DNA of 64,000 bases from Celeribacter baekdonensis (GTDB lineage Bacteria > Pseudomonadota > Alphaproteobacteria > Rhodobacterales > Rhodobacteraceae): the NCBI RefSeq assembly GCF_900102315.1, contig NZ_FNBL01000003.1:248001-312000 (forward strand). Direction: 5' to 3'. The notes under the pieces are model-generated. The model was not told the origin of the DNA, did no database searches, and was given only the letters and a program-made list of their open reading frames with translations. Positions 138 to 17,655 of the stretch are shown one piece after another. Position numbers and translations under genes: made by a program. Each line of letters begins with the position of its first letter. Position 1 is the first letter of the stretch.

Positions 138-237
138 GGATCTGACTCCTTGTTGGGTCCATCAGTTGGAGATGCGGTCATTGCCGCGTTTTTATTATGA
201 GAGATGGGAGCGGGCGCTCCCTGTCGGCATCAGGCCC

Positions 238-3459: not shown

Positions 3460-3463
3460 CAGA

Positions 3464-3697
3464 TCACGCAAGCTCCGCAAGCACGGCACCGGCAGTCACC
3501 GGCGCGGCATCGTCGATCATGTATTTGACAAAGGTGCCCTCAATTTCGGAGGTCACAGCGATAAAGGTTTTCATCACTTCGACCAGACCGATGGTGTCGC
3601 CAATGGCCACCGCATCGCCGGGGGATTTGAACACCGGCTCCTCGGGGGAGGGCTTGTGATAAAACGTGCCGGGGAGGGGGGATTGAATGTTGCTCAT
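3464..3697 (-). CDS. accB: Biotin carboxyl carrier protein-like (77 residues)
   Basis: A short biotinyl-domain protein of 77 residues. It consists only of the lipoyl/biotinyl fold: SPLPGTFYHKPSPEE at the start and the biotinylation site VEVMKTF at residues 39-45, with Lys43 as the probable biotin acceptor. The usual acceptor motif in AccB is EAMKM; this V-M-K-T variant is typical of carriers found next to KipI/KipA genes rather than of the lipid enzyme. It lacks the N-terminal part found in fatty-acid AccB (about 150 residues). It is five bases upstream of accC and 32 bases after pxpA, in one operon. Confidence 0.85.
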   Translation of the reverse strand: MSNIQSPLPGTFYHKPSPEEPVFKSPGDAVAIGDTIGLVEVMKTFIAVTSEIEGTFVKYMIDDAAPVTAGAVLAELA

Positions 3698-3729
3698 GAT
3701 CGTTTCCCTGTTGGTTTAGCTCTGTTGGC

Positions 3730-4509
3730 TTAGGCGGTTTCAAGCACGGCGGAGGCCGGTGCGATATGGATGCCGTTTTCGGTCAGAGTGGCGCGGATGG
3801 CGCGTCCGATGTCCAGAGCGCCCGGCGTATCGGAATGAAAACAAATCGACTCGAACGCGATGTCGATGTCTTTGCCCTCAACCGTGGTCACTTTGCCCTC
3901 AAGACAGGCGCGCAGACATTTTTGCGCAATGGCATCCGGGTCGGGGCGGCCAACGCGACGGGTGAAAACAATCGCGCCGTCAGTGCCATAATCGCGGTCG
4001 GCATAGAATTCGCGCACCACAGGATGACCCAACCGTTTGGCGACCTCATAGGTCTTGGACACACCCATGCAATAGATCAAAAGATCGCCGCTGATCGCGC
4101 CAAGGCTTTCGATCATGTGGCGTGACAGATCTTCGTTGCGCGCGGCCTCCATGTAAAGTGCGCCATGGGGTTTGACGTGCTGAAGGCGGATGCCGTGACG
4201 GCGGCCAAATTCGCGCACTGCGCCGACTTGGTAAATAATGTCGTTGACCAGTTCTTCGTGCGTGGTCTGGATGAAGCGGCGGCCAAAGCCCTGAAGGTCG
4301 CGATAGCCGGGATGCGCGCCAAGCCCGACGCCGTAGACCTGCGCCAATTTGATCACCCGGTCCATGGAGTTCGGATCACCGGCGTGAAACCCTGCGGCGA
4401 TATTGGCCGAAGAGATCAGCGCCATCAGATCTTCGTCGGGCGCTTCGCCCAAGACCCAATGGCCAAAGCCCTCACCCATGTCGCAATTTAAATCGATGAT
4501 CTTCTGCAT
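3730..4509 (-). CDS. pxpA: 5-oxoprolinase subunit A (LamB/YcsF family)
   Basis: A 259-residue LamB/YcsF family protein, the PxpA subunit of 5-oxoprolinase. Visible family motifs are [11 protein letters not shown] at residues 6-16, the [11 protein letters not shown] segment near residue 45, VKPHGALY, and CFHSDTPGA near the C terminus. It is predicted to bind the cyclic substrate and, with PxpB and PxpC, hydrolyse 5-oxoproline to glutamate at the cost of ATP. I chose the ATG at 4509 since the conserved N terminus begins there; the reading frame stays open for 23 codons upstream into AT-rich promoter DNA. It is the first gene of the leftward operon and is divergent from a LysR regulator. Confidence 0.9.
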
Positions 4510-4804
4510 GACTGGTCCTTGTTCTCTGTGGAACCAGCATTTTCCAAATTGAGTCTGTTTGTAAAATTCAGAATTCAACTACAACATTATCGAATTTTCC
4601 AAATTCAAAATTTCAATTCAGATCAGATTTTGCGCGAATTTGGGCAAAATAGGCAATTTTGAAACGGCTGCCACAGTCGTTATTCTTTTTTAGAGATAAT
4701 GCTCGGATTAAAAATTGAATTTCCGAATTTACGGCACAACCTCTATACACTGTCATCGAAACGCCACGCCAAGGCGTTCGGAAAATCCGAAGAGGACGGT
4801 CCTG
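4510..4804. promoter_or_regulatory. Divergent promoter region pxpA / lysR with repeated AATTT-type motifs
   Basis: This 295-base AT-rich stretch separates pxpA from the LysR gene. A 12-base sequence ATTTTCCAAATT occurs twice in the same orientation, at 4539-4550 and 4594-4605, 55 bases apart. The second copy is embedded in a perfect 6-base dyad GAATTT-N3-AAATTC at 4592-4606. A related GAATTTCCGAATTT lies at 4717-4730, close to the LysR start. Such spaced dyads are what LysR regulators bind (T-N11-A type), so these are probable operator half sites; the assignment is inference. Confidence 0.55.
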
Positions 4805-5722
4805 ATGAATCTGCGCCAATTGAAATATTTCCTCGCCACCGCCGAATTGGGTCAGGTCAGCCGTGCCGCCAGTGAATTGTCGATCTCGCAATCCTCGATC
4901 ACCACGGCGATCCGCGAGTTGGAACAGGAAATGGACACCATCCTGTTTGTGCGCACGGCGCATGGGATGGAACCGACCGCATCTGGGCGCGAACTTGTGG
5001 GGGCGGCGCGTGATGTGTTGGAAAAGGTCAATATCGCCCGCAACATCGGCCAAGGTCGATCCGAGATTGAAGGCACCATCAACATTGCCGCGACCTATAC
5101 GGTGATCGGCTATTTCCTGCCGTTTCACCTGGATCGTCTGACCCACAGATTCCCAAAACTCGACATCCGCATCAGCGAGCTGAACCGCGAAAGCATCGAA
5201 GAGGGGTTGATGACCAATCGCTTTGACATGGCGGTTTTGCTGACTTCGAACACCGCCAATCCCGAACTTGAGACCGAAACCTTGCTGCGCTCGCACCGCC
5301 GCCTTTGGGTGCCGCAAAACCATCCGCTGCACCAACAGGGCCGCGCGACATTCGAAGACATCGCGAAAGAGGATTACATCATGTTGACCGTCGATGAGGC
5401 GGCCAATACGTCGATGAAATATTGGGGGCCGACCGGGCTGACGCCCAACATCAAACTGCGCACCTCATCGACCGAAGCGGTGCGTTCCATGGTCGCCAAT
5501 GGCCAAGGCATCACCATTCTCTCGGATATGGTTTATCGGCCTTGGTCGTTGGAGGGGCGGCGGATTGGCACGGTCGCCACAGACCGCGAAATCCCGTCGA
5601 TGGATGTGGGGCTGGCGTGGCGGCGCACACAGGAGATGAGCGAGCCTGTTCGGGTGTTTTACGACTATTTCATGGATGCGTTCCTGTCACCGCAAATGTC
5701 GCAACTCGCCGGACGCAGTTAA
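4805..5722 (+). CDS. LysR-family transcriptional regulator of the pxp operon
   Basis: A 305-residue LysR-type regulator. The N-terminal winged helix-turn-helix covers about residues 1-60 (MNLRQLKYFLATAELGQVSRAA start), followed by a typical linker helix and a periplasmic-binding-like effector domain to the end. The ATG at 4805 begins the canonical LysR N terminus; an in-frame upstream ATG at 4715 would add 30 residues that look non-coding. It is divergent from pxpA across 295 bases with repeated operator-like motifs, so it probably controls the 5-oxoproline operon and its own gene. The effector is unknown; 5-oxoproline or a related cyclic compound is a guess from context. Confidence 0.85.
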   Translation: MNLRQLKYFLATAELGQVSRAASELSISQSSITTAIRELEQEMDTILFVRTAHGMEPTASGRELVGAARDVLEKVNIARNIGQGRSEIEGTINIAATYTVIGYFLPFHLDRLTHRFPKLDIRISELNRESIEEGLMTNRFDMAVLLTSNTANPELETETLLRSHRRLWVPQNHPLHQQGRATFEDIAKEDYIMLTVDEAANTSMKYWGPTGLTPNIKLRTSSTEAVRSMVANGQGITILSDMVYRPWSLEGRRIGTVATDREIPSMDVGLAWRRTQEMSEPVRVFYDYFMDAFLSPQMSQLAGRS

Positions 5723-5750
5723 GGGCGGCGGCCCGTCAGAGCCGCCACCC
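5723..5750 (+). terminator. GC-rich hairpin after the LysR gene
   Basis: Directly after the LysR stop codon there is a 10-pair stem (GGGCGGCGGC against GCCGCCACCC, one C-A mismatch) with an 8-base loop. There is no T tract, so it is a weak intrinsic terminator at best; it lies between convergent genes. Confidence 0.45.
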
Positions 5751-5760
5751 GATCCGCGCG

Positions 5761-5782
5761 GTGAAAGGCGTGACGCTTTAGG
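5761..5782. repeat. 22-base repeat, copy 1 (second copy 61237-61258)
   Basis: The 22 bases beginning GTGAAAGGCGTGACGC are identical to bases 61237-61258, 55 kb away and in the same orientation. This copy reaches a few bases into the 3' end of the M20 amidohydrolase gene, including its stop codon. The second copy forms one arm of a hairpin. Confidence 0.6.
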
Positions 5783-6944
5783 CCGACAGACGTTGCCGCA
5801 CCAGCGTGACCCAATAGGAACTGCCCCAGCCGATCACATCGTCGTTAAAATTATAGGCCGGGTGATGCAGATTGGCCGACGGTCCATTGCCGATATTGAT
5901 CATGCAACCCGGCACTTTGTTCAGCATAAAGGCGAAATCTTCACCCCCCAAAGTGGGCGTCATATCCAGCGTCACATTCTCCACACCTGCCACCGCGCGC
6001 GCGGCTTCGGCGGCAAATTCGGTCTCTTGCGCATGGTTCACCAGCACCGGATAGCTGCGTTTATACTCCAGCGTCCCAACACAGCCATGTCCGGCGGCGA
6101 TATTGGACACGATCTCGCCCACGCGGCGTTCGACATGATCACGCAGCGCCTCATTCATCGTGCGGACCGTGCCTTTGATGGTGATCTCCTGCGGGATGAC
6201 GTTATGGGCATGGCCGCCCTCAATCGCGCACAATGAGACGACATGGGCGTCAAACGGGTCGACGGAGCGCGCGCTCATGCCGTGAATCGCCTGAATGATC
6301 CCGGCGAGCGCTGGAAACGGATCAATGCTTGTGTGCGGTTCGGCAGCATGCCCGCCTTTGCCGGTGATGGTGATGGTCAGGATGTCCACGGCGGCCATAT
6401 TCGGCCCCGGCGCGGTGGTGAATTTTCCCACATCCAGCCCCGGCATATTGTGCATGCCGTAGACCTCATCACAGGGCCAGCGCTCAAACAACCCGTCTTC
6501 GATCATCGCCTGCGCGCCCGCGCCGCCCTCTTCGGCAGGTTGGAAAATCACGATCACCGTGCCGTCAAAGGCCCGCGTTTCTGCCAGATGTTTCGCCGCG
6601 CCCAGCAACATGGTCGAATGGCCGTCATGACCACAGGCGTGCATTTTTCCCGGCACTTTCGAGGCATAGGCCAGCCCGGTTTCTTCCAGAATTGGCAGCG
6701 CATCCATATCGGCGCGCAGGCCAATCATCCGCCCGGAGATATTGGTTTTGCCGTGGATCACACCGACCACGCCGGTCTGGCCCAGCCCCTCGACGACCTC
6801 ATCCACTCCGGCTGCACGCAGGGCCTCGGCCACTTTCGCGGCGGTGCGATGGACCTCGTACAAAAGCTCGGGGTTTTCATGTAAATCATGGCGAAAAGCG
6901 ATCAAACCTTCGATCTCGCGCGCCACCCAATTTTCAATCGCCAT
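5778..6944 (-). CDS. M20 family amidohydrolase (hippurate/N-acyl amino acid hydrolase type)
   Basis: A 388-residue M20 metallopeptidase-family amidohydrolase. The binuclear metal site is visible: MHACGHDGH at residues 101-109 (Cys104, His106), the AEEGGAGA segment near 138-144 with the metal/general-base glutamates, His164 in YGMHNMPG and GGEDFAF near the C terminus. A dimerisation lid with a GGHAAEPHTSIDP segment follows residue 210. The family cleaves N-acyl, N-carbamoyl or peptide bonds of amino acids. It is the last gene of a three-gene leftward operon, three bases after an ATC-hydrolase-family gene and downstream of an amino acid oxidase gene, so an N-carbamoyl or N-acyl amino acid produced by its neighbour is a reasonable substrate guess. 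The exact substrate cannot be read from the sequence. Confidence 0.85.
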   Translation of the reverse strand: MAIENWVAREIEGLIAFRHDLHENPELLYEVHRTAAKVAEALRAAGVDEVVEGLGQTGVVGVIHGKTNISGRMIGLRADMDALPILEETGLAYASKVPGKMHACGHDGHSTMLLGAAKHLAETRAFDGTVIVIFQPAEEGGAGAQAMIEDGLFERWPCDEVYGMHNMPGLDVGKFTTAPGPNMAAVDILTITITGKGGHAAEPHTSIDPFPALAGIIQAIHGMSARSVDPFDAHVVSLCAIEGGHAHNVIPQEITIKGTVRTMNEALRDHVERRVGEIVSNIAAGHGCVGTLEYKRSYPVLVNHAQETEFAAEAARAVAGVENVTLDMTPTLGGEDFAFMLNKVPGCMINIGNGPSANLHHPAYNFNDDVIGWGSSYWVTLVRQRLSA

Positions 6945-6947
6945 ATT

Positions 6948-7415
6948 TTATCCTCTCAACATTTTATATCGAAAATCACAATGGCTCGCGCCTTTCATGA
7001 TCGTCTGTGTCCGGGTCAATTCGATCTCCGGGTTGTAGCCGACGCAAAAATCGCCATCGCGATTGCAGGACAGTAAATGCCCAATGTCGCCCAGGCCCAT
7101 CTCCTGATACATTTCCGCATAGCGACAGCGCGTGACGTTAAAGGCCATCTGATCCGGCTCGGTCACCAACACATCCATCTCAAGCGCGTCTTCTTTGGTC
7201 CAGTTTGGCAGAATATCGGCGAAATCCGACAGGTTCGGTGCATGGCCCAGATCTTCGGCCAAGGCTTTGCCCTGTTCAATTGCCGAGCGCGAACAGGTCG
7301 CGCCAATCACCGCTTCCGCCTCGGCGCGGCCAGAGCGTTCGGTGATCACGTCGAGCACATGTTTCAGGATCATCGCCTCAATGCGGCGGCGTTCGAGGAT
7401 GGGGAGGTCTTTCAT
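6948..7415 (-). CDS. ATC hydrolase-family protein 1 (L-2-amino-thiazoline-4-carboxylate hydrolase-like)
   Basis: This 155-residue protein resembles the family named after L-2-amino-thiazoline-4-carboxylic acid hydrolase, which in Pseudomonas opens the thiazoline ring to N-carbamoyl-cysteine. Features I can see are the helical N terminus (LERRRIEAMILKHVLDVI), a VTRCRYAEMY motif, a conserved Cys in LLSCNRDGDF and the terminal GASHCDFRYKM motif, which carries the family's Cys-x-Phe-Arg-Tyr hallmark. No signal peptide is present, so it is cytoplasmic. It lies between an FAD oxidase gene and an M20 hydrolase gene with gaps of 13 and 3 bases. A second, diverged family member is encoded at 14075-14575. 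Many members of this family have no tested activity, so the reaction is uncertain. Confidence 0.7.
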   Translation of the reverse strand: MKDLPILERRRIEAMILKHVLDVITERSGRAEAEAVIGATCSRSAIEQGKALAEDLGHAPNLSDFADILPNWTKEDALEMDVLVTEPDQMAFNVTRCRYAEMYQEMGLGDIGHLLSCNRDGDFCVGYNPEIELTRTQTIMKGASHCDFRYKMLRG

Positions 7416-7428
7416 AGCGTCACCTTTC

Positions 7429-8757
7429 TCATAGTTTCGGCTCCTGACGGTCTTTGCGTTGCAACCATGTCAGATAGAGCGGTGCAACCCGGCGACCAAT
7501 GGCATGAAACGGCAGCGGATGCGGCTCGGTGACAGGAAGGGCCAGCCCGCGCTCATCCTCGCCATCCACAGCCCGCGCGATCTCGCGTCCCAACGCATTG
7601 CCAAGCGCCACGCCGCGCCCGTTGCATCCAATCCACGTCCAGCCATTCGGGCCGAGTTTATGGACCCGCGGAAAGCGATCCCAATTCATTGACAGATAGC
7701 CGGACCAGACATGGGTCATTTTCGGCGGCGCAAGCTGCGGGAAACTGTCGGCCAGATTGGCGGCGACCTTGCGTGCGATCCGGGCCTGAACGTCGCCACC
7801 GCCCAGAATGGCCCCGCCGGTGATCAACCGATTGCGCGCATCATAGCGGAAAAACCGCAAATCGCCACGCGTGTCAGACACCGCCTGACGCCCCGGCAAA
7901 AGCGTGGCGCGCAAATTGTCCGAGAGCGGTTCGGTGGACATTTGCCACGAATGCACGGGGATGATGGACCGCGCCAACCGCCGCGCCAGTCCGGGGGCCA
8001 AGATGCCAGTGTAGGCATTGGTGGCAAGGATCAGCGCGCGGGCTTTCACCGTGCTTTTGACTGTACTATTGACTGTGCCCTGCGCGGTTTTGACGACCCA
8101 CTCAGACCCGGTGTGAGCATAGCTCTCCACGCGGGTTTGTTCATAAAGTGTGCCGCCATGGCGCTCTACCGCCCCGGCCAATCCGCGCGCCAAAGCCAGC
8201 GGGTTGATATGCCCGCCCGAAGGCGCCAACATCCCGCCGTACCAATGATCCGTGCCCATCAATGCGGTGGTGGCGGCGCGATCAAGGTATTGGACCTCAA
8301 GCCCAAAGCGCGTCCAGGCTTCCACCCGCTTTTGGCTCAGCTTTGTGCGTCCGGGCGAGTGCGCCGGTTGAAACCACCCGGTTTGCTCCGCTTCGGCCTC
8401 AATCCCCTCATCGCGGATTTTATCAAACAACATCCCCGCCGAGGCCCCGATGAGTTCGGCAAATTTGCGCCCTGTCTCGCCAAAGCGCGCCACCCACATA
8501 TCGGGTTCGGCGGCGGTCAGCGTTGGGATCACCTGACCGTTGTTGCGCCCCGACGCGCCCCAGCCCACGGCCTGACCTTCGAGCACCACAACATCGCGCC
8601 CGGCCTTGGCCAGATGTAGGGCTGCGGAGAGGCCGGAAAAGCCGCCGCCGATGATCACGGTGTCGGTTTCAATCGGACCCGTCAGGGGCGCAGTGGGCGG
8701 GCGTTTGGGGGCGGTGTCGGCCCAAAGCGAGGGCGGGAAGGAAACGGGGCTTTGCAT
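7429..8757 (-). CDS. FAD-dependent amino acid oxidase/dehydrogenase (DadA/PuuB type)
   Basis: A 442-residue DAO-family flavoprotein. The Rossmann dinucleotide motif (IIGGGFSGLSAALHL) sits at residues 35-49 and the FAD-contacting GRNNGQVIP segment at about 70-78. The C-terminal part has a GWTWIGCNGRGVALG segment that closes the FAD site. The length and layout match gamma-glutamylputrescine oxidase and related amine or amino acid oxidases; the substrate is open. Around residues 225-240 a four-residue unit (GTVN, STVK, STVK) is repeated three times at 8044-8079, a small in-frame 12-base duplication. It is the first gene of an operon with the ATC-hydrolase-like and M20 genes, and is divergent from an Lrp regulator 117 bases away. 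Confidence 0.85.
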   Translation of the reverse strand: MQSPVSFPPSLWADTAPKRPPTAPLTGPIETDTVIIGGGFSGLSAALHLAKAGRDVVVLEGQAVGWGASGRNNGQVIPTLTAAEPDMWVARFGETGRKFAELIGASAGMLFDKIRDEGIEAEAEQTGWFQPAHSPGRTKLSQKRVEAWTRFGLEVQYLDRAATTALMGTDHWYGGMLAPSGGHINPLALARGLAGAVERHGGTLYEQTRVESYAHTGSEWVVKTAQGTVNSTVKSTVKARALILATNAYTGILAPGLARRLARSIIPVHSWQMSTEPLSDNLRATLLPGRQAVSDTRGDLRFFRYDARNRLITGGAILGGGDVQARIARKVAANLADSFPQLAPPKMTHVWSGYLSMNWDRFPRVHKLGPNGWTWIGCNGRGVALGNALGREIARAVDGEDERGLALPVTEPHPLPFHAIGRRVAPLYLTWLQRKDRQEPKL

Positions 8758-8874
8758 TTCGGGTCTTTCGGTGGTGTGATGGGTAAATTCTACGGAATGG
8801 GCGTTTTGGCGAATGGATTTCTATGGTTTGCGTAAACACGGGTATGTATTCAGAGGTAAACGAGGCGAGGCGAT

Positions 8875-9348
8875 ATGAGCGACACAAGTTTTGATGAGAT
8901 CGACCAGCGCATTCTCGACATTTTGCAGGTGGACAGCGACCTGCCGATTGCCGAGGTGGCGGATCGGGTGGGGCTGAGCCCGACGCCGATTTGGCGGCGC
9001 ATCAAACGTATGGAGGCGGCGGGGTTGATCCGGGGCCGGGTTGCCTTGGTCGATCAAAAACTGGCCAATGTGCCGATGACGATTTTCATCGGCGTGACCG
9101 CGCCGCGTCATGCGATGGAATGGTTCACCCAATTTCGCGCGCTGATCGAAGACATCCCGGAGGTGGTCGAGGCTTATCGCCTCACCGGGGCGACGGATTA
9201 CATCATGAAGGTCGTGGTGCCCGATATTGCCACCTATGACGTGGTCTATCAGCGGATGATCGAGGAGGTGGAATTTTCGACGGTGAACTCGTCGATCTCG
9301 ATGGAGGAGTTGAAATTCACCACCGCCGTTCCGACCAAATATCTGTGA
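8875..9348 (+). CDS. Lrp/AsnC-family transcriptional regulator
   Basis: A 157-residue Lrp/AsnC regulator. It has an N-terminal helix-turn-helix (DEIDQRILDILQ, then AEVADRVGLSPTPIWRRIKRME, residues 6-45) and a C-terminal RAM effector domain (about 65-150) with the ATDYIMKVVV segment. Such proteins sense amino acids and often control a divergent catabolic gene. Here the divergent gene encodes a flavin amino acid oxidase, the classic arrangement (compare PutR or DadR-type pairs), so local control of the oxidase-ATC hydrolase-M20 operon is likely. The ATG follows a purine-rich GAGGCGAGGCG stretch. Confidence 0.88.
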   Translation: MSDTSFDEIDQRILDILQVDSDLPIAEVADRVGLSPTPIWRRIKRMEAAGLIRGRVALVDQKLANVPMTIFIGVTAPRHAMEWFTQFRALIEDIPEVVEAYRLTGATDYIMKVVVPDIATYDVVYQRMIEEVEFSTVNSSISMEELKFTTAVPTKYL

Positions 9349-9363
9349 TTTGGGCGTTCGGGG

Positions 9364-9420
9364 CAGGGGCCCAGACAGGGGCCCAGACTGGGGGCCAGAC
9401 AGGGGCGTGTTCAGCCCCTG
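9364..9420. repeat. 12-base tandem repeat ending in a hairpin between convergent genes
   Basis: Three full 12-base units (CAGGGGCCCAGA, an exact second copy, and CTGGGGGCCAGA) run from 9364 to 9399, followed by a partial unit. The last unit forms a perfect 7-pair stem CAGGGGC/GCCCCTG (9400-9406 with 9414-9420). It lies between the Lrp gene and the end of livF and could act as a bidirectional transcription stop without a T tract. Confidence 0.65.
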
Positions 9421-9436
9421 CCGATATGGGATGTGT

Positions 9437-10153
9437 TCACGCCGTCTCATGGACGTGACCGCCCAAATAGGCCTCAGCCACACGCGGATCATTGGCCAAT
9501 GCCGAGGCATCGCCTTCGATCACGATTTTGCCGTGTTCAATCACCGAAGCCGTGTCTGAAATCCGCAACGCGGCTTTGACGTTTTGCTCGACCAAAAGCA
9601 CGGCGTAGCCTTCGGCGCGGATTTTCGACACCAGCTCGCAGATGAACCCAACCAAACGCGGGGCGAGACCCAGAGAGGGTTCGTCCAACAGCAACACTTT
9701 GGGTTTGCGCATCAAGGCGCGCCCGATGCAGAGCATCTGTTGCTCGCCACCCGACATCGACCCGGCCTGTTGTTTCAGCCGCTCTTCGAGGCGCGGGAAC
9801 AGGGCCAACACGTGATCCAATTCCTGCCGCCCCAAAGGTCCGGCCCCGATCACAAGGTTTTCCAACACGGTCATGTTGGAAAAAATCTGCCGCCCTTCCG
9901 GGGCCTGCATGATGCCACGTTCGACGATTTCATGGCTTTTAAGTTTGGAAATGTCTTCGCCCTGCAAAAGGATTTCCCCGCCCGTGGCGTGATAAATCCC
10001 GGAGATACAGCGCATGAGGGAGGTTTTGCCCACCCCGTTGGCACCCAGCACAGATACGATGCCTTGCTCCGGCACAGTGACCGAAATGTCGTGCAAGATG
10101 TCCTGAATGCCGATTTTGAGCGACAGGTTTTTGATCTCAAGAATGTTGCTCAT
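9437..10153 (-). CDS. livF: Branched-chain/amide ABC importer ATP-binding protein, LivF type
   Basis: A 238-residue ABC ATPase of the LivF type. The Walker A motif (GANGVGKTSLM) is near residues 37-47, the signature MSGGEQQMLCIGRAL near 133-147 and Walker B (VLLLDEPSLGLAP) directly after. It powers import of a solute captured by the binding protein encoded at 12877-13989. It overlaps livG by four bases and is the last gene of a seven-gene operon. LivF-type systems carry branched-chain amino acids, amides or urea; the operon context here argues for a special amino acid substrate. Confidence 0.88.
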   Translation of the reverse strand: MSNILEIKNLSLKIGIQDILHDISVTVPEQGIVSVLGANGVGKTSLMRCISGIYHATGGEILLQGEDISKLKSHEIVERGIMQAPEGRQIFSNMTVLENLVIGAGPLGRQELDHVLALFPRLEERLKQQAGSMSGGEQQMLCIGRALMRKPKVLLLDEPSLGLAPRLVGFICELVSKIRAEGYAVLLVEQNVKAALRISDTASVIEHGKIVIEGDASALANDPRVAEAYLGGHVHETA

Positions 10154-10908
10154 CCCTCATCTCCCCCAAGGTAGGCTTCTAACACGCCGGGGTCCTGGCG
10201 CACCACGGCGGGCACGTCATCGGCGATTTTGCGGCCCGAGGCGAGCACCACAAGACGTTCACAAATGCCCATGACCAGTCCCATATCGTGTTCCACCAAC
10301 ATGATGGTCAGCCCTTCTTTGTTCAGCCCGGTGATGAATTGCGCCAGTTCCGTGGTTTCGGAATCGTTCATCCCCGCGGCCGGTTCGTCCAGGATCAAAA
10401 GCTCCGGTTTCATCGCCAAGGCCCGCGCGATCTCAAGGTATTTGCGCTTGCCATAGCTGAGGTTGGCGGCGAGATCATCAGCGTGATCGGCCAGACCCAC
10501 CCGTTCCAACATCTCATAGCTGCGCTCAGAGATCTCTTTTGCCCGCGCCTTGCCACCGAAGAGCGACGACATTGGACCGACGCCAATCATCCCAAGGGCC
10601 CCGACAGAGATATTGTCGAACACCGTCATGTTCGGAAACACCCGCAGGTTTTGAAAGGTGCGCGACATGCCTTTGTGGGCGATCTTATGCGCCGACAATC
10701 CGGTGATGACCTCGCCTTTAAACCGCACCTCGCCCGAGGAGGGCGGCGTGAAGCCGGAGATCAGGTTGAACAGCGTGGTTTTCCCCGCGCCATTCGGTCC
10801 GATCAGGCCAAACAATTCGCCTTGATTGACCTGTGTGGTGACATCATCGACCGCTTTGAGACCGCCAAAGGCGCGGGTCAGATGGTCGAGTTCCAGAATG
10901 GGCGTCAT
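10150..10908 (-). CDS. livG: ABC importer ATP-binding protein, LivG type
   Basis: A 252-residue LivG-type ABC ATPase. It has Walker A (GPNGAGKTTLFNLI) near residue 37, the extended segment after it typical of LivG, a YGKRKYLEIARAL signature region and Walker B (LLILDEPAAGMN). The ATG at 10908 overlaps the livM stop as ATGA; a TTG two codons upstream at 10914 is an alternative. In the signature the usual LSGG is LSYGKR, which is normal for LivG. Confidence 0.88.
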   Translation of the reverse strand: MTPILELDHLTRAFGGLKAVDDVTTQVNQGELFGLIGPNGAGKTTLFNLISGFTPPSSGEVRFKGEVITGLSAHKIAHKGMSRTFQNLRVFPNMTVFDNISVGALGMIGVGPMSSLFGGKARAKEISERSYEMLERVGLADHADDLAANLSYGKRKYLEIARALAMKPELLILDEPAAGMNDSETTELAQFITGLNKEGLTIMLVEHDMGLVMGICERLVVLASGRKIADDVPAVVRQDPGVLEAYLGGDEG

Positions 10909-11903
10909 TTCCAACCGATGCCTTTCTCGCCTTTTTGGGCGGCCCAGCCTTGGCCAAGGACACGGCGGGCAAAGTTGAGGGCAGAGACTTCGCCAAACAG
11001 ACCTTTGGGTAAGAACAGGATGGCGGAGAACATCAGCACACCGACGATGATGTTGCGAATATCCCCGACCGAGCGCAGGGCTTCGGGCAGAAGGATCAGC
11101 AACAGCGCACCGATCAAAACCCCCGGAAGACTGCCCAAACCGCCGACCACAACCATGGTCAGGATCAGGATGGATTGCGAAAAGTGGAAGTCATTGGGCG
11201 AGATGTAGCCCGTGGTATAGGCCCAGAGCGCACCGGCGATGCCGGCGAAAAAGGCAGAGATCACAAAGGCCTGGATTTTCATCACGGTGACATTGATGCC
11301 CATGGCCGAGGCGCATTGATCATCCTCGCGCAAGGAGCGCAACGCATTGCCGTAATAGGAATGGCTGAGCCGGTTGAGCACGAGGATAGACACGGCAACG
11401 ACCCCCGCGACGACATAGTAGATGCCCAGATCACTGTCGATCTCAAGGCCAAACAGGTTGATGCCAGAGAACAACATCACACCATTCGGCCCGTTGGTCA
11501 GACCAACCCAGTTGAGAAACACCAGATAAAGCATCTGACCAATGCCCAGCGTGGCGACGGCGAAATAGATCGACATCAGGCGCATGGTGGGCAAGGCGAC
11601 CAAAAAGGCGATGGCGGCGGCGGACAGGCCCGCAAGCGGCAAACCAAGGGTGAAGCCGATCCCATGATTGGCCCCCAAAATCGCCGCCACATAGGCACCG
11701 ACCCCGTAAAGCGCCGCATGACCCAAGTGCAGCAATCCAGCCACCCCGGTGACAAGGTGAAGCGAGGCCGCGAGCAACATGAAAATCGCGGCGATGGTGG
11801 CGATCTGATAGTAATAGCCTTTGTCAAACCCCATGAGCAGCGCCGGGATCAGGATAAAGGCCAACACGAGCAGGCCGAGTTTGATGAGGAGCGATTTAGA
11901 CAC
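10905..11903 (-). CDS. livM: ABC importer permease, LivM type
   Basis: A permease of about 332 residues with eight to ten hydrophobic segments and the LivM family core (GVAGLLHLGHAALYGVGAY near residue 55, and SIYFAVATLG near 110). The cytoplasmic loop that contacts the ATPase is visible as NALRSLREDDQCASAMGIN. I prefer the GTG at 11903, preceded by GGAGGGAAC and overlapping the livH stop; a TTG six codons upstream is possible. It forms the inner membrane channel with LivH. Confidence 0.87.
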   Translation of the reverse strand: MSKSLLIKLGLLVLAFILIPALLMGFDKGYYYQIATIAAIFMLLAASLHLVTGVAGLLHLGHAALYGVGAYVAAILGANHGIGFTLGLPLAGLSAAAIAFLVALPTMRLMSIYFAVATLGIGQMLYLVFLNWVGLTNGPNGVMLFSGINLFGLEIDSDLGIYYVVAGVVAVSILVLNRLSHSYYGNALRSLREDDQCASAMGINVTVMKIQAFVISAFFAGIAGALWAYTTGYISPNDFHFSQSILILTMVVVGGLGSLPGVLIGALLLILLPEALRSVGDIRNIIVGVLMFSAILFLPKGLFGEVSALNFARRVLGQGWAAQKGEKGIGWK

Positions 11904-12810
11904 GTTCCCTCCTTGCGCCAAAAAGGCCTTGCGGGAAAAAGATCAGGGTCAACAAAAGGAAGGCATAGGCCACCATGTCGGACCAAACGGAGGGCATGAA
12001 ACTGGTCGAAAGACTTTCCGAGAGGCCCAAAATGATCGCAGAGATCACAGCGCCCGGCACGGAGGACAGCCCGCCCATGACCATGGCAACAAAGGCCTTG
12101 ATCCCCGGCGTGAAGCCCATCGACGGGAAAATCGCGCCGTAATACAGGCCCACCAAGATGCCCGCGAGCGCGCCCATGGCGGAGCCGATGACAAATGTGA
12201 TGATGATGGTGCGGTCGGTGTTGATGCCGCAATATTTCGCGCCCAACGCGTTGTTGGACACGGCGCGGATCGACAGGCCGATGGGGCTTTTTTTGAGCAA
12301 CCATTGCAAACCGCCCAGCATCACCAAAGTGACGCCCAAGATGATCAGATCACCGTTGACGATGGTGATCGGGCCGATGTGGATCGGTTTGTTGATCAGA
12401 TAGGCCAGATCAACGGTTTGGAATTGCGAGCCAAAGATCATCTCCATCGCTTCGCGGGCGATGATCGACATGGCGAGCGAGGACATCAGCGTGGCCTCCC
12501 GCATGGCGCGTGATTTCAACGAGGCCTCATCCGAGAAGCGGCGGAACGGGCGAAACGCCAAACGTTCAAGGCCAAATCCGGCCAAGGCACCGGCCGCCAA
12601 TGCGATAAACAGCACCACCAAAAGCGGCGGTCCAAAGGCCGAAATCGCCATCAACCCGGCAAAGGCGCCGATGGTGTAGACCTCGCCATGGGCGAAGTTG
12701 ACCACATTCAACACGCCAAAGATCAGCGTAAATCCGATGGCCATAAGCGCGTAGATCATGCCCAAGGACAGACCGATGGCCAATTGTTGCAGGATATAAG
12801 GATCGAGCAC
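11896..12810 (-). CDS. livH: ABC importer permease, LivH type
   Basis: A 304-residue LivH-type permease with about eight membrane segments. The N terminus (GLSLGMIYALMAIGFTLIFG, then NFAHGEVYTIGAF) is diagnostic of the family. The ATPase-contacting loop is SIRAVSNNALGAKYCGIN. It follows the binding-protein gene by 66 bases that contain an intercistronic hairpin, and overlaps livM. Confidence 0.88.
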   Translation of the reverse strand: MLDPYILQQLAIGLSLGMIYALMAIGFTLIFGVLNVVNFAHGEVYTIGAFAGLMAISAFGPPLLVVLFIALAAGALAGFGLERLAFRPFRRFSDEASLKSRAMREATLMSSLAMSIIAREAMEMIFGSQFQTVDLAYLINKPIHIGPITIVNGDLIILGVTLVMLGGLQWLLKKSPIGLSIRAVSNNALGAKYCGINTDRTIIITFVIGSAMGALAGILVGLYYGAIFPSMGFTPGIKAFVAMVMGGLSSVPGAVISAIILGLSESLSTSFMPSVWSDMVAYAFLLLTLIFFPQGLFGARRERV

Positions 12811-12832
12811 GTCGTCCCCCTTTTGCTATGGT

Positions 12833-12868
12833 CCCCGCCCGTTCAGCCCAGAGGCCGTGCGGACGGGG
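12833..12868 (-). terminator. Intercistronic hairpin between livK and livH
   Basis: A 9-pair stem with one G-T wobble (on the coding strand CCCCGTCCG against CGGGCGGGG) and an 18-base loop lies in the 66-base gap after the binding-protein gene. No T tract follows immediately. Such hairpins commonly raise the amount of binding protein relative to permease by protecting mRNA or causing partial termination. Confidence 0.45.
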
Positions 12869-12876
12869 AGAAGGGT

Positions 12877-13989
12877 TTATTCGACTTCGACAAACATGCC
12901 GCCCACGACGGAAGCTTTGGTCAGCTCCTTAAGCGGTTCGCCGTTTTCATCGAATGTGGTGTTGCCGGTGACGCCGGGGAAATCAGTCGTGGCGGCCACA
13001 GCATCGCGCAGGCTGTCGCGGGTGAGATCCGGGTAGGCTTTGACCACGGCGGCCAACATGATGTTCACCGCGTCATAGGCCTGTGCCGGGAATTGGCCGG
13101 GGGCGTGATCATGGGTTTTGTCCCATTCGGTGACGAATTCTTGAACATTCGCATCCATCCGCGTCGGCAAGAAGGTCGCGGTCAACAACAGCCCTTCGGC
13201 GGCGTCGCCCGCCAATTCGATCAACTGGTCATTATAGGCCGCCGAGGTCGAATAGACCGGGATTGCGGCGTCAAGCTGTGCCATTTGTTTCAGGAACTGC
13301 GCGCCGTCTTCATAAAAGAACCCGGTGTAGACCGCGTCAGGTGCCTGATCTTCGAGCTTGGTGATGATGGAACGGAAATCGGCCAGACCACGGTTGAAGA
13401 ATTCGGTGTAAACCACTTCGCCACCGGCGGCTTCAAACGGCTCGACAAAGCCTTTCGCCACGGATTGACCCCAATCGGTCTGCTCCGCGATCACCGCGAC
13501 TTTTTTGATGCCTTTGTCCATCATCCATTGGGCGTTCACCGCGCCCTCTTGGTCTTGGGTGGTGATGTTGCGGAACTGCCATTTGGAGATTTTGGCAAAA
13601 TCCGGGTGCGACGCGGTTTGCGACAATTGCACCATTCCGGCTTTTTTATACACCTGAGCCGCCGCCATTGACACGGTCGAGGTGAAATCGCCCAAAACGC
13701 CGACGATCTCTTTGTCATCGACAAATTTACGCGCGATGGTCACGCCCTCTTTGGCGTCAGAGCGCGAATCCTCATAGATGATTTCGACCGGAACAGGCAG
13801 CGCGCCCGAGGCGTTGAATTTGGTCAATGCGATCTCTGCCGCATCTTTGAAATCCTGACCATATTGCGCGGTGTTGCCGGTGAGCGGCAGTTGGTAACCG
13901 AGTTTAACACTGTCTTGGGCAAAGGCTGCGACCGGGGTCAATGCGGTGGCAGCAGCAAGCAAAAGTGCCGTTCTGCGTGTGAGTTTCAT
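12877..13989 (-). CDS. ABC importer substrate-binding protein, LivK type
   Basis: A 370-residue periplasmic binding protein of the leucine/isoleucine/valine type I fold. The signal peptide (MKLTRRTALLLAAATALTPVAAFA) has an RR pair before the hydrophobic core and cleaves near residue 24. The mature protein starts SVKLGYQLPLTGNTAQYGQ, the usual ligand-site start of this family. It captures the solute for the LivHMGF importer. It lies 85 bases after an ATC-hydrolase-family gene in the same operon, so the ligand is probably related to that enzyme's substrate rather than plain leucine. Confidence 0.87.
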   Translation of the reverse strand: MKLTRRTALLLAAATALTPVAAFAQDSVKLGYQLPLTGNTAQYGQDFKDAAEIALTKFNASGALPVPVEIIYEDSRSDAKEGVTIARKFVDDKEIVGVLGDFTSTVSMAAAQVYKKAGMVQLSQTASHPDFAKISKWQFRNITTQDQEGAVNAQWMMDKGIKKVAVIAEQTDWGQSVAKGFVEPFEAAGGEVVYTEFFNRGLADFRSIITKLEDQAPDAVYTGFFYEDGAQFLKQMAQLDAAIPVYSTSAAYNDQLIELAGDAAEGLLLTATFLPTRMDANVQEFVTEWDKTHDHAPGQFPAQAYDAVNIMLAAVVKAYPDLTRDSLRDAVAATTDFPGVTGNTTFDENGEPLKELTKASVVGGMFVEVE

Positions 13990-14074
13990 GGTGAGTTCCT
14001 CTGTTGGTCGGAAGGGTGTTTGAGTGTGAAAGAGCCCGGTTGATCCGGGTCTGAGGGTGTGAACTTTGGCGGGC

Positions 14075-14575
14075 TTATTCCACCGCCACGGGGCCGGGTT
14101 CCACGATCAGGCGGCAACATCCGGTTTGGCCGGGTTTCCAGGTTTCGCCCTTAAAGGTAAACCCTGCCGCGCCAAACATGCCCGCGTCAATCGCGCCCGC
14201 CGCACGGCAGAGCATCTCAAGCTCTTCGCCCTCGCGCCCGGCGGCTTCCCAATTGTCTTTGAGTGGGCAGCGGTGAAACTGAATCTCCATCCCCTCAGCG
14301 TCGCATTTGCGCAGCTCAGGCGCAAACAGGTGATCGCGGCAGGGGATGCCAGCCAGAAACTGTTCGGTCAGCGCTTCGATATTGGCGGGGCCATGCGGTT
14401 TGAGCTTTTGCCCCATTTCGGCGCCAAGGCGGTAGGTGGCTTCGCCCATCAATTCGATGGTCTTTTCCGGGCCAAATTCTTCGCGCAGCACATCGAACAT
14501 GTGCATGTAGAATTTCGCGCGCATCGCGTAAGCGCCGGACAGTTGTTCCAGAGTGATTTCGGGGGCGTCGGTCAT
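14075..14575 (-). CDS. ATC hydrolase-family protein 2
   Basis: This 166-residue protein is a second member of the L-2-amino-thiazoline-4-carboxylate hydrolase family. It has the longer-form hallmarks: HRCPLKDNWEAAG around residues 100-112, MLCRAAGAIDAGMFGAAGF, then a TGCCRL motif near the C terminus. Candidate functional Cys residues occur in each of these segments. It shares little direct identity with the paralogue at 6948-7415, so the two probably act on different ring compounds. The ATG at 14575 follows AGGAGACC; 13 upstream in-frame codons are not needed. It is second in the operon, 54 bases after the PLP-enzyme gene and upstream of the importer genes. The family name is known; the substrate here is inferred. 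Confidence 0.75.
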   Translation of the reverse strand: MTDAPEITLEQLSGAYAMRAKFYMHMFDVLREEFGPEKTIELMGEATYRLGAEMGQKLKPHGPANIEALTEQFLAGIPCRDHLFAPELRKCDAEGMEIQFHRCPLKDNWEAAGREGEELEMLCRAAGAIDAGMFGAAGFTFKGETWKPGQTGCCRLIVEPGPVAVE

Positions 14576-14629
14576 GTCGGTCTCCTGTGGTCCATTTATA
14601 TCGGCGCGCCGCACGGGCGTGTTTGGCGG

Positions 14630-16321
14630 TCAAGTCGGGGGATGAGACACCACATCCTGTGGCATCCAAAACCCCCGCAGAGCTTCGCAATTCGGCTCAA
14701 AGACGGGGCTGTGTTTCAAAGCGGGACGGTCCCGCGCAGCGGCAAGCTCGGCGGCGAGCGTAAGAAACATGTCCCGTTGCGCAAAGGGTTGGCGTTTGGT
14801 TGGGGTGTCGATCCTCCAGAAGCCTTTGAGTGTGGCGGGGGTGTTGGCCGCACCGTTTTTGTGCCGCCACAGCCCCTGAGCCACATCCACATCATAGTCC
14901 GAAAGGAAGCGCAATCCATTGTTACATATAAACAAAATCGAAGATATGATGTAGTCAACCGTCTGCGCGTCAAAGAAGTAGTTGAACCCCAGCCGCACCC
15001 AACCGGGCCGCATCAGGCTTTTGCCCTGCGCAATCGCGGCCTCATAGGCGGTGGCGGTGTCTTGCGGGATATGCAGCAATTCATGGCCATAGGGCCCGGC
15101 ACAAGAACAGCCACCCCGCGCCTGAATGCCAAACAGATCGTTGAGCAGAGCCACGACATAACCATAATGCAGCATTCGCCCTTCACACGAGATGTTGAAG
15201 GACAAAACCCCAAGCCGATCCGTGTCCAGTGGCCCAAGAAGACTCAGACCCGGCGCGGTGGAGAGGCGGGCAAAGGCCTCGCGCATCATCGCGCGTTCGC
15301 GCCGTTCGATCTCGGTTGATCCCACCGCTTCTTTCAGCGCCATGACGGCCCCCGCGCGGATGTCCCCGACGATACCCGGCGTGCCCGCCTCTTCGCGCCG
15401 CTCGATGTCGCGCACATAGGTGTGGTGACCTGCGGTGACATAGCTCACCGTGCCGCCACCTGTTACACCGGGGCGAGTGGAGGTGAACAGCGCCTTATCC
15501 GCCACCAAAACGCCAGAGGCACCGGGGCCACCAATGAATTTATGCGAGGAATAGAAAATCGCGTCGATCCGCGCATCCGGGTCCGTGGCGTCAAGGGTCA
15601 AAGACATGTCGACATAGGGAGCCGCAGCGGCAAAATCACAGACGAAGCGCGCGCCATGTCGGTGCAGCAGCGTCGCGATGGCTTTCAGATCGGAGCGCAC
15701 GCCGGTCACATTGGAAGCGGCGGAGAAGGCACCGATTTTAAGGACCTCTTCCGGGTGGGCCTTCAGGCGTTCGGCCAGATGGGCGAGGTCGATTTGGCCC
15801 AAAGTATCCAAGCCGATCCGCTCAATCACCGCGCCGGTTTCGCGCCACGGCAGATCGTTTGAGTGGTGCTCATAGGGGCCGACAAAAACCACCGGAGCGT
15901 CGCCCGCGCGCACTTTGGCCTCAATGTCCATGCCGCGCACCAGCCGATCCACCGCCGCCGTCGCGCCATTGCCGGTGAAGATCACCACATGGTCGTTGGT
16001 TGCGCCAAGCGCATCGGCGATGATGCGCCGCGCCTCTTCGCGCAGGGCCGTGGTTTCGCGCCCGGTATAGGAGGTCTCGGTGTGGGTGTTGCCATACACC
16101 GGCAGGGCGATGTCCGTGATGGCCGCTTCGATCATGCCAAGCGAACGCCCCGAGGCGATGAAATCGGCATAGACCAAAGGGCGTGGGCCATAGGGGCCGG
16201 GGATGGCTTGACCCTCGCCGATGACGCTATCGCGGATTCGCGTGATCAAATCCTCTTTGGCATCGAGGTCAAAGGCGACCTCTGTCTCAGGATGTATCGG
16301 AGTTGCCGCAGGGTGGACCAT
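14630..16321 (-). CDS. Class-V PLP aminotransferase-fold enzyme, cysteine desulfurase-like
   Basis: A 563-residue fold-type I PLP enzyme of aminotransferase class V. The PLP lysine is in YSSHKFIGGPGASG, preceded by the CDFAAAAPYVD aspartate segment and the TGNGATAAVDRL phosphate-binding region. A RGGCSCAGPYGH motif occupies the place where desulfurases such as SufS carry the catalytic Cys loop, so Cys chemistry is plausible. At over 560 residues it is longer than SufS (about 400); the extra part is a C-terminal extension of more than 100 residues of no clear family. The start may be ATG 16321 or TTG 16327; both follow GAGGAA. It leads the operon with ATC-hydrolase-like protein 2 and the Liv importer. 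A role in handling cysteine released from a thiazoline is an inference. Confidence 0.75.
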   Translation of the reverse strand: MVHPAATPIHPETEVAFDLDAKEDLITRIRDSVIGEGQAIPGPYGPRPLVYADFIASGRSLGMIEAAITDIALPVYGNTHTETSYTGRETTALREEARRIIADALGATNDHVVIFTGNGATAAVDRLVRGMDIEAKVRAGDAPVVFVGPYEHHSNDLPWRETGAVIERIGLDTLGQIDLAHLAERLKAHPEEVLKIGAFSAASNVTGVRSDLKAIATLLHRHGARFVCDFAAAAPYVDMSLTLDATDPDARIDAIFYSSHKFIGGPGASGVLVADKALFTSTRPGVTGGGTVSYVTAGHHTYVRDIERREEAGTPGIVGDIRAGAVMALKEAVGSTEIERRERAMMREAFARLSTAPGLSLLGPLDTDRLGVLSFNISCEGRMLHYGYVVALLNDLFGIQARGGCSCAGPYGHELLHIPQDTATAYEAAIAQGKSLMRPGWVRLGFNYFFDAQTVDYIISSILFICNNGLRFLSDYDVDVAQGLWRHKNGAANTPATLKGFWRIDTPTKRQPFAQRDMFLTLAAELAAARDRPALKHSPVFEPNCEALRGFWMPQDVVSHPPT

Positions 16322-16659
16322 CGTCAAAAGTTCCTCGCATGATCTTCATGTGCCACCGGGGCCTGCGTTGATGTCGGGCATGCCGGTGATTTGAGGAAAA
16401 AGTGACACCTATTCGTCATATTGAGCAATAGGTTTCTAGTATTAGTCATAAGAAAGCAAAATAAATCTAATATATGTAATTTTTGAGGGGGGACGGAGCG
16501 GGAAACGTTCAAAAATGGCGATTTCGGAGAAAAATTTTCGACAGTTTCAATCTGTTGAAGAAAGCCCCACGTTTCCGATGCCTGTTTTAACGGCAAAATG
16601 AAAACGAGGAGGCGCAGGCCTCCCCGTCTAAATCGTTCTTAAACCGCATAAAAACTGGG
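16322..16659. promoter_or_regulatory. AT-rich intergenic region with a dyad operator candidate
   Basis: About 340 bases between the PLP-enzyme gene and the end of the ugp operon. The middle (16430-16480) is very AT-rich and a likely leftward promoter zone. A 7-base inverted repeat ACCTATT/AATAGGT (16407-16413 and 16427-16433, 13-base spacer) lies about 90 bases upstream of the start codon and is a candidate operator. An open frame of 90 codons across this region looks non-coding. Confidence 0.5.
16604..16627 (-). terminator. Probable terminator of the ugp operon
   Basis: A stem of nine pairs with one mismatch (ACG-A-GGAGGC against GCCTCC-C-CGT, loop GCAG) is followed on the minus strand by a T-rich tract (CGTTTTCATTTT). 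It lies just past the last gene of the leftward ugp operon. Confidence 0.7.
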
Positions 16660-17655
16660 CTAAATGGCGATGCGGCACCAGACGCAATCATGATCTGCCA
16701 GAGGCCGACCTGTGGCGTCGAGAGAGGTGAGAATCCCTTTGTCCCGGCTCACCAGATCGCGGCCCGCAAGCCAATCGAGCTTCATCACCCGCTCCGGGTG
16801 CGGCGTGATCAGGGAGGGGCGCGTGGTCATGCCCTCGGCGGTGAACTCCCAACTGTAGCCCCGCTCTTGGCCAAGGGCAAAAAGCGTCTCTTTGCGCCAA
16901 TCGAATTCTGGCGGCATGTGATTGCCGGTGTTGAGATCGCCACCGATGAGCACGGGCATATTCGGCGCAAAATCCTCTACCGCCTTGAGCAAAATCTCAA
17001 ATTGCGCGTGTCGATGCGCGGGGCCCGCGTTGCTTTCCAGATGGGTGGAAACGACACAGATCGGCCCGCGTTCCGTCGGCACAATCGCGGCCAGTGCCAT
17101 CCGCCCGCCCAAACGTGGTTGATCCGGGTCGGCGCCGCTGTCGGTGCTGAACCAATGGCCGTGATCATCGAGCCGGATCAACGTCACCGCCTCAAAGGGC
17201 ACAGAAGACAGGATCGCGTTGCCATGCCAACCGAGTGCATTGACATCATCGGTGCAATAGGCCCGTTCAGTCGCGCCGCCCAAATCCAGCTCGTGAAACT
17301 CCACGCCAAAAGCGTAGACCATGCCCAAAGCCTTGGCCATCTCAGCCGTGGTGTGGCGCTGGCCGGTGCGGGCCATGCCGTGATCAACCTCTGAGAGCAG
17401 CACCACATCGGGGGCCACCGCACCCAGATGCGCAGCGGTGTCAGCGGGGAAGAGGCAACGTTCGACATTCCATGCCGCAACGGTGATCTCGGCGGGCAGG
17501 GTGGTGCGGGCGGTTTGGCCGCCCAATTGCACCGCGTTCATCGCCATGACCTCGGCCATCAGCGCGCGGTGCGCCTCGGCGGTGCGCGGGGCGGCCAAAA
17601 GGGTGGCGCGTTGTTCGGAGGTGACGGGTGGGAGTCTGTCCAACAGCGAAATCAC
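16660..17655 (-). CDS. Endonuclease/exonuclease/phosphatase-fold hydrolase in the ugp operon
   Basis: A 331-residue protein of the EEP (DNase I-like) superfamily. The metal and catalytic motifs are in order: AAWNVER (about residue 60), LLSEVDHG (about 90), the central HLES segment, GGDLNTG (about 245), DWLAGR and a final LADHDCV with the catalytic His. No signal peptide is present, so it acts in the cytoplasm. The start ATG overlaps the ugpC stop as ATGA. In other bacteria the ugp operon ends with the glycerophosphodiesterase ugpQ (GDPD fold); here an EEP-fold phosphodiesterase holds that place, so cleavage of imported glycerophosphodiesters is a reasonable inference. EEP enzymes also act on nucleic acids, sphingomyelin and inositol phosphates, so the substrate is unproven. 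Confidence 0.8.

Follow-up and report, generated by a model that had tools for sequence, protein, structure and literature searches.

An oxidase-containing gene module with ATC-type hydrolases in Celeribacter baekdonensis and a candidate route from thiazolidines to cysteine

Genes of the locus and their family assignments

The analysed window, a 64,000-nucleotide stretch of Celeribacter baekdonensis contig NZ_FNBL01000003.1, carries at positions 5778-16327 genes for two proteins of the ATC_hydrolase family PF14196 (here ATC1 and ATC2), named for L-2-aminothiazoline-4-carboxylate (ATC), together with a flavin adenine dinucleotide (FAD) oxidase of the DAO family, an M20 amidohydrolase, a Liv-type importer and a class V pyridoxal phosphate (PLP) enzyme. 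We propose, with moderate confidence, that they act together as a single module for the breakdown of cyclic cysteine derivatives, an oxidative route from thiazolidine to cysteine. Along the window the minus strand encodes M20, ATC1 and DAO, followed by LivFGMHK, ATC2 and the PLP enzyme:

5778..6944, minus strand: M20 aminoacylase-type amidohydrolase, proposed N-acylcysteine deacylase (PF01546, 162.6 bits)
6948..7415, minus strand: ATC1, ATC_hydrolase family, proposed thiazoline ring-opening hydrolase (PF14196, 128.5 bits)
7429..8757, minus strand: DAO-family FAD oxidase, proposed to oxidise the ring (PF01266, 213.2 bits)
8875..9348, plus strand: Lrp/AsnC regulator, divergent, between both operons (PF13412, PF13404, PF01037)
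9437..10153, minus strand: LivF ATPase (PF00005)
10150..10914, minus strand: LivG ATPase (PF00005, PF12399)
10905..11921, minus strand: LivM permease (PF02653)
11896..12810, minus strand: LivH permease (PF02653)
12877..13989, minus strand: LivK-type substrate-binding protein (PF13458, 199.1 bits)
14075..14614 (start probably 14575), minus strand: ATC2, second, diverged PF14196 protein (PF14196, 47.1 bits)
14630..16327, minus strand: SufS-like PLP enzyme of class V, extended at the C-terminus, proposed to act as a cysteine desulfurase or lyase (PF00266, 160.7 bits)

The grouping of ATC1 with the oxidase and M20, and of ATC2 with the PLP enzyme and the Liv importer, made in an initial annotation of this DNA, is borne out by gene order and by operon-like gaps of 3 and 13 bp within M20-ATC1-DAO, 15 bp between ATC2 and the PLP gene and 85 bp between LivK and ATC2; the LivF, LivG, LivM and LivH genes overlap one another. 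The start of the PLP gene, previously placed at 16321, is corrected here to 16327, where its open frame begins with a TTG behind GAGGA, and for ATC2 the ATG at 14575, from which homology extends, is the probable true start. Across this region, 15 proteins are 95-100% identical to those of C. baekdonensis B30 (L047).

The same annotation had described two diverged ATC-hydrolase genes about 7 kb apart, and this description holds. The two genes lie 6.7 kb from each other, both frames are open, and both proteins score above the Pfam cut-off for PF14196 (28.1 bits), with ATC1 as a clear member and ATC2 as a diverged one; they are the only PF14196 matches in the whole genome (38 contigs, 4.44 Mb). 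A profile of ATC1 and ATC2 searched against solved sequences returned just five ion-channel rows (E ≥0.43). The AlphaFold2 model of ATC1 (predicted local distance difference test [pLDDT] 91.7) adopts a V4R/MopR-like fold over the whole domain and the predicted model of ATC2 (pLDDT 88.2) a V4R/Bet3-like fold, the best structural matches being the phenol sensors MopR and PoxR and TRAPP Bet3 subunits. Alike in fold to V4R/MopR-type domains, ATC1 and ATC2 differ from them in being stand-alone domains inside a metabolic operon. In an alignment of 21 ATC1 and ATC2 rows, C97 and C146 are invariant and C117 is conserved in at least 90%; a conserved cluster of three cysteines is common to ATC_hydrolase and V4R proteins (PMC5847659).

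The best named model for DAO is the L-pipecolate oxidase AmaA (NF050086), with 235.7 bits and a cut-off of 600, and comparison with solved structures gave distant matches only (five rows, best E 8e-10). The M20 protein scores above the cut-off of the amidohydrolase subfamily TIGR01891 (336.6 bits; cut-off 153.75) and fails the carbamoylase subfamily TIGR01879 (27.7 bits; cut-off 204); its score to the model of the ectoine enzyme DoeB2 (301 bits) is likewise below cut-off. In an alignment of 23 rows (the window, 19 module loci and three other ATC loci), residues C104, H106, E138, E139, H165 and H360, which we take to be the metal-site residues, are invariant in 23/23. The best solved match of M20 is YxeP (1ysj; 249 bits), which in Bacillus subtilis deacetylates N-acetylcysteine, according to the available text of PMC9706529.

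The PLP enzyme is a 565-amino-acid class V protein scoring 153.8 bits to the SufS model TIGR01979, below its cut-off of 475.1. Its K263 and C409 align with the SufS Lys and Cys that are presumably the Schiff-base lysine and the catalytic cysteine, and both are invariant in 17/17 rows. The enzyme thus shares the class V PLP fold and this residue pair with SufS, but it differs from SufS in its C-terminal extension and in its placement in a catabolic operon; no Fe-S assembly genes were found among the genes assigned in window positions 1-18752. The nearest solved chain to LivK is 3hut (327.5 bits). Of the two Escherichia coli regulators compared, the Lrp/AsnC protein is closer to DecR (38% identity over 149 amino acids, 127 bits) than to Lrp (93 bits). 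DecR responds to cysteine, and the DecR-like regulator of this locus may do so as well.

Recurrence of the module in other genomes

To assess linkage, we used 244 genomes of the window's order, taken to be Rhodobacterales on the evidence of L047. PF14196 matches are present in 22 of them, and larger stretches were examined around 20 of the 22 matches outside the window's genome (G161 and G182 were left out). ATC1 occurs at 67-79% identity in 7 of the 20 stretches (L025-L028, L030-L032), is directly adjoined by DAO and M20 in six of these seven and is also accompanied by the PLP enzyme in four of the six. The linkage is reciprocal: a close DAO (E ≤1e-100) is found in seven of the 244 genomes, including that of the window, and lies within 80 bp of an ATC1 match in all seven, while a PLP enzyme of at least 53% identity is found in five, always beside or near DAO-ATC1. 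This close PLP gene adjoins DAO directly in four of the five, with Liv and ATC2 standing between them in the window. The next PLP matches fall to 47% identity and are widespread, and the notion that the PLP family is always bound to the module was rejected, since the close form is present in 5 of 87 matching genomes; in the other 82, a class V paralogue 40-47% identical to the module enzyme is the sole form. ATC2 was found in the window's genome, with one weak match (E 9.5e-4) elsewhere among the 244.

A scan of GTDB contigs for ATC2, using short peptide patterns of one protein and hence reaching close relatives only, yielded 13 loci. In 12 of them (L047-L058), DAO, ATC2, Liv and ATC1 all fall inside a 20-kb span; the remaining one (L059), weakly matched at 28%, lacks the module. 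The 12 loci belong to Celeribacter, Actibacterium, Pacificibacter, Cohaesibacter, Tropicimonas, five Stappia, Azospirillum and a metagenome-assembled genome of the Hyphomicrobiales. A class V PLP enzyme is present in 10/12 and M20 was seen in 5/12; the Liv genes of L058 are only 36-41% identical to those of the window, and L052 has a further Dpp-type transporter upstream. Among the 40 listed of 77 plasmid records matching DAO, 22 carry it at 42% identity or above, and 21 of the 22 had ATC1 or ATC2 within 10 kb, Roseomonas marmotae being the lone exception with no ATC match nearby. Azospirillum megaplasmids show two gene orders, M20-DAO-ATC2-LivKHMGF-ATC1 and Lrp-RidA-Cds1-ATC2-LivKHMGF-ATC1-M20-DAO. 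In a second version of the module, a Dpp-type importer is followed by PLP-DAO-ATC1-M20 (Sagittula, Pseudosulfitobacter and relatives) or by DAO-ATC1-M20-Cds1 (Agrobacterium). Conserved linkage across related genomes, suggested as a check of the initial annotation, is therefore what we observe (DAO 7/7 and PLP 5/5 within the order; 12/13 ATC2 loci), and the grouping exceeds chance, recurring in other orders and being reciprocal within that of the window.

For further tallies we took the 26 loci with both ATC1 and DAO, not counting the window, and judged gene presence by set blastp identity thresholds within the examined stretch of each locus; these loci are not independent, L047 being near-identical to the window and several Stappia and Azospirillum loci close kin. 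M20 is present in 19/26, an Lrp regulator of at least 38% identity in 15/26, and in 14/26 the oxidase and amidase genes flank ATC1 directly on either side. The importer is of the Liv type in 16 loci and of the Dpp type in 10, never both. ATC2 accompanies all 16 Liv-type loci, 12 of which were found via ATC2 itself so that its presence there is by construction, and none of the 10 Dpp-type loci, whereas a glyoxalase-like VOC protein (assigned to PF13468 in the single protein tested) is found in 9/10 Dpp loci and 0/16 Liv loci:

L061, 615-1478: VOC gene of a Dpp-type locus
L062, 2392-3279: VOC gene of a Dpp-type locus
L025-L028, L030, L032 and L126: VOC gene also present

VOC sits at the edge of the L026 and L030 stretches, and L118 is covered from 0.8 kb before DppA onwards, so that in these three a VOC or Lrp gene farther out could be missed. 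The split between Liv with ATC2 and Dpp with VOC suggests two substrate classes converging on DAO-ATC1.

The PLP slot of the 26 loci is filled by the class V enzyme in 16, by a Cds1-like enzyme in four and by both in none. The Cds1-like enzymes belong to Azospirillum, Agrobacterium and Shinella loci, not to the window; the three tested score 535.4, 561.7 and 569.3 bits to NF052478, just below its cut-off of 600, with a runner-up model at only 131-153 bits. Judged by this nearest family by far, they probably work like Cds1, which in Mycobacterium tuberculosis converts cysteine into H2S, pyruvate and ammonia (available text of PMC8389258). A RidA gene adjoins the Cds1-like gene in three Azospirillum loci, an arrangement that would fit the release of 2-aminoacrylate.

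We rejected the possibility that the module is the general context of the ATC family. In other genomes of the window's class, taken to be Alphaproteobacteria, 20 stretches (L098-L117) contain ATC1 relatives at 44-54% identity and, at the set thresholds, no DAO, PLP enzyme, ATC2 or carbamoylase, indicating that PF14196 serves several pathways; in L117, M20 adjoins the ATC1 relative. In two of these stretches (L098, 7222-13576; L099, 6717-13137) a pair of ATC1-like genes in opposed orientation is separated by about 5.3 kb, and the L098 neighbours resemble, by eye, genes for a TRAP transporter, an acyl-CoA ligase and a CoA-transferase, which may point to a further PF14196 pathway. The Martelella plasmid pMM593 (L063, 3782-20453) carries an aspartate/glutamate racemase, LivKHMGF and ATC1, with a different flavoprotein of 490 amino acids replacing DAO and a nonribosomal peptide synthetase close by, and in Azospirillum sp. 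B510 (L125, 7989-16447) an ATC1-like gene lies near GntR, phosphotransferase, class III aminotransferase and urea carboxylase genes.

Carbamoylase-linked loci and the ATC1 tree

At the set thresholds, oxidase and carbamoylase divide the ATC1 loci between them: a carbamoylase is found in 0/26 DAO loci, and DAO in none of the nine loci that pair ATC1 with a carbamoylase (Pantoea, Aminobacter, Sinorhizobium, two Shinella, two Ensifer, Burkholderia and Paraburkholderia). Two of these nine, Shinella L121 and L129, combine ATC and carbamoylase with a Cds1-like gene, without DAO. With a Cds1-like desulfhydrase in both kinds of locus and no carbamoylase beside DAO, the end product of the module is probably cysteine, reached via N-acyl-cysteine.

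To place these loci, we inferred a tree of 64 ATC1 rows from relatives of at least 40% identity, leaving out ATC1 matches below 40%. DAO linkage requires six changes on this tree against a shuffled mean of 20.8, and 0/500 shuffles were as low. One 25-row branch holds 22 of the 27 DAO-linked rows together with three unlinked rows, and the remaining five, all from Azospirillum, are split between two further positions: L064, L131 and L132 group with the unlinked L117, and L057 and L060 lie inside a 14-row branch containing all nine carbamoylase-linked rows. DAO is thus paired with ATC1 proteins from three places of the tree, of which the simple reading would be a repeated DAO-ATC1 pairing, and such repetition would imply that the oxidase and the ring-opening hydrolase act in one route.

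A possible thiazolidine route and its rivals

The linkage, the family assignments, the split from carbamoylase loci and the exchange of the last enzyme were computed, while we infer the chemical steps, their order and the substrate. In the proposed route, the Liv-type importer would take up an adduct of cysteine with an aldehyde, namely a thiazolidine carboxylate such as thioproline or one of its 2-substituted relatives, and DAO would oxidise the ring N-C2 bond to give a delta2-thiazoline-4-carboxylate. As a V4R-fold hydrolase, ATC1 would then open the thiazoline to N-acyl- (or N-formyl-) cysteine, from which the M20 aminoacylase would free cysteine and a carboxylic acid, and the SufS-like PLP enzyme would remove the sulfur, a task that in other loci would fall to a Cds1-like L-cysteine desulfhydrase, accompanied in Azospirillum by RidA. 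ATC2, tied to the Liv version only, probably opens a second ring substrate or a stereoisomer of that import route. Three features lead to this scheme: the desulfurase- or desulfhydrase-like last enzymes point to cysteine as the product, an aminoacylase in the place of the carbamoylase points to a ring-opened intermediate that is N-acyl rather than N-carbamoyl, and the added oxidase points to an imported ring one step more reduced than thiazoline, namely a thiazolidine. That the best named model of DAO is a cyclic imino acid oxidase would support oxidation of a ring, even though the score is below cut-off. The suggestion in the initial annotation that the locus degrades cyclic sulfur amino acids accordingly survives in part: the genes form one conserved catabolic module whose relatives point to cysteine, and then to sulfide or sulfane sulfur, but the parallel with the N-carbamoyl-cysteine route of Pseudomonas is not supported, given the M20 scores and the absence of carbamoylase, at the set thresholds, from the DAO loci.

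Three known systems resemble the module. The first is the Pseudomonas ATC pathway, whose genes we take to be AtcB-AtcC. In the module an FAD oxidase is added to this scheme and an aminoacylase-type M20 replaces the carbamoylase, although a Cds1-like gene adjoins Pseudomonas-type ATC loci in Shinella as it does in some module loci. The Pseudomonas pathway likewise employs a PF14196 ring-opening hydrolase followed by an M20-clan amidase, and it yields cysteine (PMC10821248, in part); both N-carbamoyl and S-carbamoyl intermediates are reported there, so that an S-acylcysteine is a possible intermediate here too. The conversion of thioproline (timonacic) to N-formylcysteine by bacteria and mitochondria (PMC9814826, in part) similarly combines thiazolidine oxidation with opening to an N-acylcysteine, but uses proline-pathway enzymes (references in PMC9814826; PMC12899673, in part) where we propose that the module has its own oxidase, hydrolase and amidase for the purpose. 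The breakdown of S-(2-succino)cysteine by the yxe operon also involves an ABC importer, a flavoenzyme and an M20 deacylase that frees cysteine from N-acetylcysteine (PMC9706529, in part); unlike that operon, the module has ATC hydrolases, and no acetyltransferase or monooxygenase was found among its genes.

Several observations weigh against the proposed route. The substrate is putative, each chemical step is a prediction, and the role given to ATC2 is a guess. The DAO score lies far below the pipecolate oxidase cut-off, and M20 scores as highly to the carboxypeptidase model CpsA (336.1 bits; cut-off 500) as to its own subfamily. Six of the 26 module loci have neither the class V PLP nor a Cds1-like enzyme and in seven no M20 was seen, so that either genes at other sites carry out these reactions or the route is a different one; in L031, moreover, ATC1 at 71% identity stands without DAO, M20 or PLP enzyme. 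The Dpp-type importer of the second version may carry a different substrate, and the three places of DAO-linked ATC1 on the tree could reflect one old pairing followed by losses. Finally, bacterial oxidation of thioproline is known to proceed via proline enzymes, and N-formylcysteine also arose from formaldehyde and cysteine in buffer (PMC9814826, in part), which together would make dedicated genes unnecessary for thioproline itself.

Among the alternatives, degradation of a sulfur-free cyclic or secondary amino acid (pipecolate-, proline- or ectoine-like) is the strongest, yet unlikely. Here the hydrolases would open a cyclic imine or amidine, M20 would remove an acyl group and the PLP enzyme would not be a desulfurase. 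The best named models, L-pipecolate oxidase for DAO and, among others, DoeB2 for M20, would suit this reading, both below cut-off, as would a Liv importer, which is fit for many amino acids; the invariant SufS-type Lys and Cys of the PLP enzyme and the four loci in which Cds1-like enzymes fill its slot argue for sulfur chemistry instead. It is very unlikely that the module follows the classical ATC route, in which imported ATC would be ring-opened to N-carbamoylcysteine, and this in turn cleaved to give cysteine, with the oxidase incidental. ATC1 does belong to PF14196, the carbamoylase loci share ATC1 (and in 2/9 a Cds1-like gene) with the module, and the conversion of ATC to cysteine is known in Pseudomonas (PMC10821248, in part), but M20 lies outside the carbamoylase subfamily, oxidase and carbamoylase exclude each other among the loci and the two ATC1 kinds occupy mostly separate branches, L057 and L060 excepted. 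That ATC1 and ATC2 are non-enzymatic ligand-binding or sensor proteins, handling the substrate or regulating the operon, is suggested by their sensor and Bet3 structural matches but highly improbable, because the family includes a purified hydrolase (Tashima 2006, as cited in the available text of PMC5847659) and ATC1 so often has the oxidase and amidase genes as its immediate neighbours.

Returning to the oxidative route, its fullest form is, in our judgement, an evenly balanced proposition: a dedicated thiazolidine salvage system made of an oxidase, V4R-fold thiazoline hydrolase(s) drawn from three places of the ATC tree, an N-acylcysteine deacylase and a cysteine-degrading PLP enzyme, with exchangeable import modules (Liv with ATC2, or Dpp with the glyoxalase-like protein), which would allow bacteria of the sea and of plant roots to use adducts of cysteine with aldehydes as food. 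Thiazolidines arise unaided when cysteine and formaldehyde come into contact, and a role as a mammalian formaldehyde reservoir has been proposed for thioproline (PMC9814826, in part). A small set of purified enzymes and simple compounds would be enough to test the proposed pathway. While the route from ATC to cysteine is already known (PMC10821248, in part), its oxidase-containing version was not found described: no paper on an oxidase-containing ATC-type module appeared among those listed in the literature searched, which most subscription papers lay outside.

A 5-oxoprolinase cluster adjoins the module at window positions 238-5722 and comprises pxpA, a gene for a 77-amino-acid biotin carrier (3464-3697), accC, pxpB and pxpC together with a LysR gene. 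Because 2-oxothiazolidine-4-carboxylate is a 5-oxoprolinase substrate, it was tempting to count this cluster as part of the module. We rejected this, since L047, the near twin of the window, was the only one of the 26 loci to show pxpA, although L049-L051 were covered for only 1.7-2.1 kb past M20, where a more distant cluster could be missed. Among the loci examined the cluster thus adjoins the module in Celeribacter only (the window and L047), and in Pantoea (L065) a hydantoinase/oxoprolinase pair stands beside the ATC-carbamoylase pair.

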